This document shows, in pieces, positions 52,096 through 55,019 of a stretch of 64,000 nt of DNA. A program made the position numbers and the translations under genes. The notes beneath the pieces were generated by a model. That model made no database searches. It was not told the DNA's origin and saw only the letters and a list, made by a program, of their open reading frames with translations. How positions within the stretch are numbered: the stretch's first letter is position 1; each line of letters opens with the position of its first letter. Source of the stretch: Streptomyces sp. NBC_01750 (GTDB lineage: Bacteria; Actinomycetota; Actinomycetes; Streptomycetales; Streptomycetaceae); NCBI RefSeq assembly GCF_035918095.1, contig NZ_CP109137.1, forward strand, positions 372,001 to 436,000, read 5' to 3'.

Positions 52096-52347
52096 ATGAG
52101 CGTTGACGTGACCTTGCTGCCTGCCACCATCCCGCATCGGCTTCACGAGGAGGACGTGGATCGGATCCGGCGCTTCGAGGACCGTACGGATGGAGGGAAG
52201 CTTCGGTTTGAGTACTCCATTCCCGACAGCGGTTCCCTGATCGTCTGGCGCGTGACCGACCCGCATGTCAACGCCGAGGTGGAGACCGTGTTCGGGCCGG
52301 CGGCATGGGAAGAGGTGCAGGGCGACCTTCACCGGTCGCTGCACTGA
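52096..52347 (+). CDS. Hypothetical protein, leaderless
   Basis: An 83-residue acidic protein (MSVDVTLLPATIPHRLHEEDVDRIRRFEDRTDGGKLRFEYSIPDSGSLIVWRVTDPHVNAEVETVFGPAAWEEVQGDLHRSLH) with an alpha-beta pattern and normal codon use. There is no Shine-Dalgarno. TTGAAA (52062-52067) and TACAGT (52084-52089) are separated by 16 bases and end 6 bases before the ATG, as in a leaderless actinobacterial promoter. Family unknown. Confidence 0.65.
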   Translation: MSVDVTLLPATIPHRLHEEDVDRIRRFEDRTDGGKLRFEYSIPDSGSLIVWRVTDPHVNAEVETVFGPAAWEEVQGDLHRSLH

Positions 52348-52574
52348 CAGATGCCCCCTGGCAAACGCAGCCAGAGGCACCAGCGCCTGATAGTCCTCGT
52401 ATAAATTCCCTTATGCCAGGCTCGTCCCGGTGACATCATCCGCCGCATGGATGCAGCCAGGAACCAAGGAACCTCGCAGGCCCCACCGCCCGCGAGGTCC
52501 TGGGCGAACATAAGCCGGCGAGGCGGTACAGCCGGACGAAGGCCAGAGGCCCGGCGGGCCGGTCCGCGAGCGCG

Positions 52575-52772
52575 TACCTGGGCGGTGGGCTCGCGGTACT
52601 CCTCTGCGGGACGCTCCGCTCGGCGCTGAGCGAGGAACTGCTGGTAGTGCTGGATGACGTCCTCGTCGAAGACCGCGACGTAGCCATAGGTGGTCTGGAT
52701 GTTGAGATGTCCGAGCAACGCGGCGCCGATATGGATGGGCAGGCCGCGGCGACAGAGGGCTACGACGTGCAT
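52575..52772 (-). pseudogene. Tyrosine recombinase (phage-type integrase), C-terminal fragment
   Basis: The frame reads ALCRRGLPIHIGAALLGHLNIQTTYGYVAVFDEDVIQHYQQFLAQRRAERPAEEYREPT. LLGHLNIQTTxGYVAVFDEDV is the C-terminal catalytic region, in which the usual (R/T)xxY nucleophile is the Tyr of TTYGYVAV. The core with the catalytic Arg and HxxR is missing upstream. A relic of an integrative element. Confidence 0.7.
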
Positions 52773-52913
52773 AGCGGCATGTTCCGTGCTTTGCGGTGCA
52801 GTTGATGCAGGCTGGCTCTCCGCGTCACCAGGACCCTGTGGTAGCCATATGGCTCAGGGTGCCGCTGCTCCGTATCAGCAGCATCGGCAGCGAGACGATC
52901 AAGGGGAGCAGCT

Positions 52914-55019
52914 GTGAGCACGGACGAACAGGCGGACGGCGAGAACGGCGACGTTCATGCGGAGCAGTCGGCAGCGAAACGATTCGCCGACTACCCTCGC
53001 CGCGCCAAGTCCGGCTGGCGACGGTGGATACCGTCGTGGAAGCTGGTGACCGTCCTCTGCCTGGGGTTCGTCGGCGGCGTGCTGGGAGTTGCGACCGTGG
53101 CCTACGCGCTGGTGGAGGTCCCGAATCCGACCAGGATGGCCCAGGCGCAGAGCAACGTCTACTACTGGGCCGACGGCGGGCAAATGGCCAGTACCGGGGG
53201 TGAGGTCAACCGCCAGATCATTGCGGTCGACCAGATCCCCGCCGCGATGCAGAACGCTGTCATCTCGGCGCAGAACAAGTCGTTCAGGACCGATTCCGGC
53301 GTCGACGCCATGGGCGTCGGCCGGGCCCTCGTGGACATGGTCGGGGGCACCGAGTCCCAAGGCGGATCCACGATCACGCAGCAGTACGTGAGGGCGACCC
53401 GCTTTTCGGGCGAGCCGCACTCCCTGGGCGGCAAGTTCCGGGAGCTCGTGGTGTCCGCCAAGGTGGGCAGCAATATGGAAAAGTCCACAATCTTGACGGG
53501 CTATCTGAACACGGCGTACTACGGCCGTGACGCATACGGCGTCCAGACCGCGGCCCATGTGTACTACGACAAGGACGCCAGGGACCTCAATGTGGGCGAG
53601 TGCGCGTTCCTCGCCACGCTGCTGCAGGGCGCGACCCACTTCGATCCGGCAGGGGCCGTCACGACCGACCCGGCCGCAACGCCTGCCGCCAACACGGCAC
53701 GTGCCAAGCAGCGTTGGGCGTGGATCCTCGACGAGATGGTCAAGGACGGGCAATTGGCCGCCCCCGAGCGCGCCAGGTTCACTCACTTCCCGATCCCCCG
53801 ACCCATCACGAAGGCCGCGAAGCCGGACGGTCAGGTCGGCTACCTCGTGGACCTCGCCACCGCGTACTTCCTCAAGAACAACGGGAAGGGCATCACGTCC
53901 GACGACCTGGCACGCGGCGGCTACGAGATCCACACGACGTTCGACAGGCGGAACGTCGCGGCGCTGGAGAGCGCTGTGCAGCAGGCCCGCAAGGCGCGCA
54001 TCAATCCCGCACAGCGCCCGGACACGGACACTCACGTCCAGTTCGGTGGCGCCTCGGTCAACCCGGCCACTGGGGCAATTGTCGCCGTGTACGGCGGTGA
54101 GGGCGCTGCCCAGCACATCGGCAACCATGCAGACGAGACGGGTGTCCGGGTCGGCTCGGCGTTCACACCCTTCGTATTGGCGGCTGCCCTGAGGGACGGC
54201 GTGCGCGATCCCGAGGGAAAGCCCGAACAGGGCCCGTCCGGCCGCACGATCGTCGATCCGGACAAGAGCCGGTACAGCGGCCTGAACAAGCTGAAGATCA
54301 AGAACTACGACGGTTCCCCCTGGAAGTCCGAGAAGGGTGAGGAGTGGCTCCAGGCCAATGACGGCGGTGCGTCGTACGGGGACATCACGCTGCGCGAGGC
54401 CATGGTCCGCTCCGTCAACTCGCCCTTCGTTCAGCTGGGTATGGACATCGGCATCCCCACGGTCCGGCAGGCAGCCGAAGATGCCGGGCTGCTGAAGTCC
54501 AGTCTGAACACCTCCAGCGTCCCCTCGTTCTCGATCGGTACCTCCTCGCCCAGCGTCATCCGCATGGCAACCGCCTACGCCACCTTCGGGGCCGACGGCC
54601 AACACTGGGAACCCTTCTCCGTCGAGCGAGTCAGCCACAACGGGCGCACCGTGTATCGCCACGAGGGCAAGCCCGCTCGGGCGTTCTCCAAGGCCGTCGC
54701 CGCCACCGTCACCGACGTCCTGCGTTCCGTCGTCGACGAGCCCGACGGCACCGGCAACAGCGCCCGGCTCCCCGGCCGCAATGCCGCCGGCAGGATCGGC
54801 ACCACGGACGGCAACAAGTCGGCCTGGTTCGTGGGCTACACGCCCCAACTGTCCACCGCGATCGACATGTACCGCCTCGACGAGAGCCAGACAGCCAAGT
54901 CCCGCCAGTTCCTGGGGATGTACGGCACCGGTGGGCCGGACAAGGCGCGGGGTGGTTCGCTGCCGTCCGAGATCTGGCGTACCTACATGACTCACGCCCT
55001 GGGAGCGCAGGCGCGGTAG
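52914..55019 (+). CDS. Penicillin-binding-protein homologue with degenerate active sites
   Basis: A 701-residue class A PBP architecture: cytoplasmic tail (1-40), one membrane helix (about 43-66), GT51 glycosyltransferase domain (about 75-290) and transpeptidase domain (about 370-670). The folds read through without a break: GGSTITQQYVRA, GYLNTAYYGRDAYGVQTAA, RSVNSPF (SxN), NKSAWFVGYTP. Key residues are changed. The GT51 catalytic Glu in AENxSF is Gln120 (ISAQNKSF). The transpeptidase SxxK is S415-A-F-T418, so the Lys is lost. The KTG box is R627-I-G629. It is probably a non-catalytic scaffold or regulator of wall synthesis (inference). The start at 52914 follows AAGGGGAG. Confidence 0.9.
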   Translation: MSTDEQADGENGDVHAEQSAAKRFADYPRRAKSGWRRWIPSWKLVTVLCLGFVGGVLGVATVAYALVEVPNPTRMAQAQSNVYYWADGGQMASTGGEVNRQIIAVDQIPAAMQNAVISAQNKSFRTDSGVDAMGVGRALVDMVGGTESQGGSTITQQYVRATRFSGEPHSLGGKFRELVVSAKVGSNMEKSTILTGYLNTAYYGRDAYGVQTAAHVYYDKDARDLNVGECAFLATLLQGATHFDPAGAVTTDPAATPAANTARAKQRWAWILDEMVKDGQLAAPERARFTHFPIPRPITKAAKPDGQVGYLVDLATAYFLKNNGKGITSDDLARGGYEIHTTFDRRNVAALESAVQQARKARINPAQRPDTDTHVQFGGASVNPATGAIVAVYGGEGAAQHIGNHADETGVRVGSAFTPFVLAAALRDGVRDPEGKPEQGPSGRTIVDPDKSRYSGLNKLKIKNYDGSPWKSEKGEEWLQANDGGASYGDITLREAMVRSVNSPFVQLGMDIGIPTVRQAAEDAGLLKSSLNTSSVPSFSIGTSSPSVIRMATAYATFGADGQHWEPFSVERVSHNGRTVYRHEGKPARAFSKAVAATVTDVLRSVVDEPDGTGNSARLPGRNAAGRIGTTDGNKSAWFVGYTPQLSTAIDMYRLDESQTAKSRQFLGMYGTGGPDKARGGSLPSEIWRTYMTHALGAQAR

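Follow-up and report, generated by a model that had tools for sequence, protein, structure and literature searches.

The class A PBP gene at positions 52914..55019 (+) of the window, by which we mean the whole 64,000-nucleotide stretch of Streptomyces sp. NBC_01750 analyzed here, has lost key residues of both catalytic centers while retaining both domains. This loss had been proposed from the sequence-only reading of the same DNA, and it is borne out by Pfam matches, alignments and a structure model. We lean towards the interpretation that the gene is a duplicate of the core class A PBP from which the chemistry of both domains has gone, and that it is a silenced gene under relaxed constraint and of no essential role, although its reading frame is still unbroken.

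The gene is an unbroken ORF of 701 aa with a GTG start, and its earlier description as full length holds: in Pfam, PF00912 (GT51) scored 160.8 bits (cut-off 27), PF00905 (transpeptidase) scored 67.5 bits (cut-off 22.1), and a membrane helix is present. With GT51 and transpeptidase domains on one chain, the protein is a class A PBP paralogue by homology. The GC3 of the gene is 0.874, compared with 0.81 to 0.93 in the core genes. Overall, the ORF, the ribosome-binding site and the GC3 appear intact. The features outside the catalytic centers are as follows:

52901..52908, + strand: probable ribosome-binding site AAGGGGAG, read in the sequence 5 bases 5' of the GTG
53037..53111, + strand: membrane anchor helix, residues 42-66, a helix of low to moderate pLDDT in the model and hydrophobic by eye

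AlphaFold2, run with 49 sequences, returned a model with a mean pLDDT of 74.2 and a pTM of 0.63. Calculated per ten residues, the pLDDT ranged from 52 to 84 in the glycosyltransferase (GT) part (residues 101-270) and was mostly between 83 and 97, falling to 56 in places, in the transpeptidase part (residues 381-650). The best PDB matches of the model were S. aureus 3dwk, Listeria PBP4 3zg8 and E. coli PBP1b 3vma. The model has the class A PBP fold, which is favored by the input alignment; because this alignment consists of functional relatives, the model indicates that the sequence suits the fold and is not proof of folding.

We then located the residues of the two catalytic centers, as listed below.

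53271..53273, + strand: Q120 (CAG) at the position of the GT51 general-base Glu (family and PDB alignments)
53391..53396, + strand: R160-A161, where 119/119 functional homologues have K-N (alignment)
53430..53432, + strand: G173, where 119/119 functional homologues have R (alignment)
53442..53444, + strand: E177, the second GT Glu, kept (alignment)
54156..54167, + strand: S415-A-F-T418, replacing SxxK (family and PDB alignments)
54411..54419, + strand: S500-V-N502, the SxN motif, kept (alignment)
54792..54800, + strand: R627-I-G629, replacing KTG (family and PDB alignments)

When aligned with 3udf (A. baumannii PBP1a) and 4oon (PBP1A), Q120 fell on the Glu of the ED pair, SAFT on SxxK and RIG on KTG, and the same placements were obtained in the alignment with the best 120 of 4170 database homologues. 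These three replacements and the retention of S500 and N502 had all been read earlier and agree with the alignments, to which we add the GT-pocket losses K160R, N161A and R173G, absent from that reading. GGSTITQQ is also preserved in the alignment. Thus, among the features expected of an active class A PBP, the protein has SxN and lacks the GT general-base Glu, SxxK and KTG. A shifted motif, that is, a different Glu, SxxK or KTG at the active sites, had been named in advance as the alternative that would overturn this assignment. It was ruled out by the PDB and family alignments and by a residue scan, since no substitute was found near the active sites: there is no Glu in residues 98-146 and no Lys in residues 361-435, SxxK strings occur elsewhere in the whole 701-aa sequence only at 19 and 468, KTG is absent from the whole sequence, and the sole KSG, at 32, belongs to the N-terminal tail.

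The database search yielded 4170 proteins that passed the E-value limit, and the best 120 were aligned. When orthologues sharing the substitutions were counted among these 120, as had been suggested, only P0001 (Streptomyces sp. NPDC002668, 701 aa, 97% identical to the window PBP) had the losses; E, SxxK and KTG are all present in the remaining 119, which form the functional set used here. P0001 is the representative of a cluster of 7 member sequences, and the losses were read in this representative. Since P0001 comes from another strain and bears identical catalytic changes, a sequencing error was ruled out. The eleven catalytic positions (E120, K160, R173, E177, S415, K418, S500, N502, K627, T628 and G629) are all invariant in the 119 functional homologues. 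In total, 18 of the 188 positions invariant in this set are altered in the 701-aa protein; when each functional homologue was left out in turn, the altered invariants numbered at most 4 in any one, with a median of 0. The number of altered invariants is thus in excess of chance.

Within the genus, the best match in 198 other Streptomyces genomes was 63% identical, and six peptide patterns run against genome contigs led to 7 loci at 56-64%. We surveyed 18 Streptomyces genomes (from 37 searched) together with the host. The 18 genomes contained 87 GT51 places (13 already among the loci and 74 fetched), of which 86 were aligned after a 116-aa fragment, L186, was left out; L185 (336 aa, lacking a transpeptidase domain) is included in the GT counts and stands outside the 85 transpeptidase-bearing proteins. 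The GT Glu and the K160 equivalent were kept in 86/86 proteins, the R173 and E177 equivalents were kept in 85/86, with L185 as the exception, and the host's other five GT51 proteins retain all four residues. In contrast to the GT residues, SxxK was lost in 12 of the 85 transpeptidase-bearing survey proteins, as well as in host L003. The GT Glu is present in each of these 12, of which 11 depart from K[TS]G too. We also observed a transpeptidase-altered, GT-intact clade in 7/18 genomes (seven rows: L128, L134, L149, L154, L161, L163 and L165). In host L003 (region G000:C1:8060170-8060700), SxxK (here ATFE), SxN and KTG are lost and the GT residues are kept.

Passages of Ogawara 2016 (PMC6273383) report that, of 100 class A PBPs from Streptomyces, 13 are without SXXK, that SXN and KTG are for the most part conserved in these proteins, and that they are judged able to function as PBPs. 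For plasmids, 10 matches were obtained, of which 5 were read and 4 scored. In L189 and L190 (NZ_CP081497.1 and NZ_CP109039.1), Leu replaces the SxxK Lys and the GT Glu is kept; L187 retains the lysine of SxxK together with the GT Glu, but its KTG reads RTG and it lacks SxN; in L191 every motif is present, including the GT Glu. A further plasmid copy, L188 (NZ_CP108701.1), has its GT and transpeptidase parts annotated as distinct genes. On the survey, Ogawara and plasmid counts, transpeptidase loss is ordinary in the genus and GT loss is odd. The window PBP resembles the SXXK-less Streptomyces class A PBPs in having lost the transpeptidase lysine, and its SAFT is also found in survey proteins L179 and L128. 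However, the GT Glu and the basic pocket residues, which the window PBP lacks, are present in each of the 12 SXXK-less survey proteins and in host L003. Those of them placed in the tree lie outside the core clade, unlike the window PBP. The frequency of transpeptidase-altered, GT-intact class A PBPs (12/85) indicates that the GT half is normally kept, and loss of the GT center on top of the transpeptidase center looks rare in the genus on these sequences. We found no paper on a pseudo-PBP or PBP pseudoenzyme in open-licence PubMed Central text.

The host genome (G000) comprises 8.98 Mb in 3 contigs and carries 6 GT51 genes. Its core class A PBP, L005 (G000:C1:4482496-4484559), has the same GT51 and transpeptidase layout as the window PBP and is 65% identical to it over residues 9-696. 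Unlike the window PBP, L005 retains E, SxxK and KTG and extends into long tails at both its N and C termini. In a 23-row set, the window PBP fell within the core class A PBP clade with a support of 100, in a quick tree that gave long-branch warnings. As judged by these relationships, the window gene is a shortened paralogue of the class A PBP found genus-wide. Other shortened paralogues (P0010, P0011, P0023 and P0026; 751/752 aa, from other strains) keep the motifs and form a separate clade from the window PBP. Beside the 97% identity to P0001, the closest core PBP among the matches listed is 90% identical to that of the host, and transfer of the altered gene between strains is possible.

On contig C1 the gene is found at 0.42 Mb, which would be in a chromosome arm if the chromosome is linear. 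Its neighbors are an alcohol dehydrogenase, a cytochrome P450, a short ORF, an ORF with an integrase-like stretch, a second short ORF, an MFS transporter and a DUF5937/ArsR-type regulator. The DNA at about 52577-52746 resembles annotated site-specific integrases on three plasmids (Streptomyces and Kitasatospora), and one ORF overlaps it:

52329..52772, - strand: 147-aa ORF overlapping the integrase-like stretch, without a Pfam match

This ORF is probably not part of the PBP system. We compared gene order from 48 to 59 kb with 121 genomes including the host, scoring two candidate stretches per genome. Among the matches listed, the PBP gene was linked to one of its flanking genes in no genome other than the host, and no conserved partner gene was found; the MFS transporter and regulator are joined as a pair in G051 and G060. 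The named neighbors include no operon and no beta-lactam cluster.

We next examined selection with a two-ratio codon model (10 taxa, 685 codons). The estimated omega was 0.072 on the window branch compared with 0.082 in the background (likelihood-ratio test, P = 0.47), and omega 1 was rejected (P = 7e-48), although the branch value averages over time before and after the catalytic losses and is rough because fourfold sites are near saturation (the window gene differs from the nine others by 0.474 to 0.556, with saturation at 0.552 to 0.565). The window PBP and P0001 have come to differ at 19 amino acids since they split, and 4 of these differences fell on conserved positions (at least 97% conserved), compared with 10 of 890 in 22 functional pairs (Fisher test, P = 1e-4) and a neutral expectation of 37% (P = 0.11); the value is not unique, because one functional pair, P0095/P0099, supplies 4/29 changes at conserved positions. 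The catalytic positions were altered at 6/11 and the other invariants at 12/177 (P = 1e-4), in a comparison for which the changes were already known when the list was compiled and were the reason for choosing the gene. In simulations of neutral change up to 17 altered invariants (300 runs per setting, without indels), a mean of 1.2 to 3.6 stops arose and 5 to 32% of runs contained no stop, and the intact ORF is therefore compatible with relaxation. Taken together, the evidence on selection suggests that most of the branch was under constraint, which was probably relaxed later, at least in part.

Two simpler measures were set aside. Plain acceleration of the branch (0.61 and 0.58 in the protein tree) was dropped in view of the amino-acid differences, which are 0.348 to L005 and 0.374 to 0.400 to the other eight, against 0.12 to 0.345 among the functional pairs listed. 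Codon rarity (AGG at 160 and 627, ACA at 418) was too weak to serve as a clock, AGG accounting for 8 of the 47 Arg codons of the gene.

The residue losses, the changes at conserved sites since the P0001 split, the rarity and the integrase-like neighbor make a relaxed paralogue the most likely explanation. On this reading, a copy of the core class A PBP carried throughout the genus would have shed that protein's N- and C-terminal tails. Its GT domain is predicted to fail in lipid II polymerization, because the general base E120 and the pocket residues K160 and R173 are gone, and its transpeptidase domain would not be efficiently acylated by donor peptide or beta-lactam, because K418 is gone and KTG is altered. 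If expressed, the product would be a PBP-shaped, enzymatically silent membrane protein.

We also considered that selection might have kept the fold as a non-catalytic scaffold or regulator, as also suggested earlier, for instance one that associates with the core class A PBP or with proteins acting alongside it, which we regard as possible but rather doubtful. Several results that count against a relaxed paralogue speak for such maintenance: the branch-averaged omega is far below 1 and not above background, the losses are concentrated on catalytic residues, unlike the expectation of plain decay, and the ORF looks intact. An intact ribosome-binding site and GC3 likewise count against relaxation, as does the fact that 4/19 is neither clearly under the neutral 37% nor unique among pairs. 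Maintenance is further favored by the intact anchor and domains and by the identical losses in a second strain, within the P0001 cluster. However, the changes since the P0001 split fall on conserved sites, no partner gene appeared among the matches listed in 121 genomes, the distribution is sparse and the core protein's tails are missing, all of which argue against maintenance and leave relaxation as our preferred reading.

Weak residual glycosyltransfer or penicillin binding by the altered pockets appears improbable. E177, S415, S500, N502 and GGSTITQQ are retained, but the general base, two basic pocket residues, the SxxK Lys and KTG are all altered. We take positions 120, 160, 161, 173 and 177 to be E. 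coli PBP1B E233, K274, N275, R286 and E290; the equivalence of Q120 and E233 is presumed from the motif. On this equivalence, Q120 is the same Glu-to-Gln change at the GT general base as E. coli PBP1B E233Q, although the latter is laboratory-made and confined to the GT site, whereas the window PBP is natural and also has K160R, R173G and an altered transpeptidase site. In the passages concerned, E233 is called the general base (PMC8119973), and E233Q alone is described as giving a GTase-defective PBP1B (PMC7943195). Finally, the earlier suggestion of a decoy that soaks up beta-lactam is highly improbable on mechanism in spite of S415 and SxN, because a covalent decoy needs acylation and, with Thr in place of the SxxK Lys that acts as the serine's general base and RIG in place of KTG (motif roles as outlined in part of PMC8119973), covalent trapping should be poor.

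These results suggest that a doubly altered copy may represent the last step before a duplicate vanishes or, if it is maintained, a PBP role beyond catalysis. If kept by selection, it would belong to the cell-wall machinery without catalyzing any reaction, in a genus where the transpeptidase half of these enzymes has been lost repeatedly.
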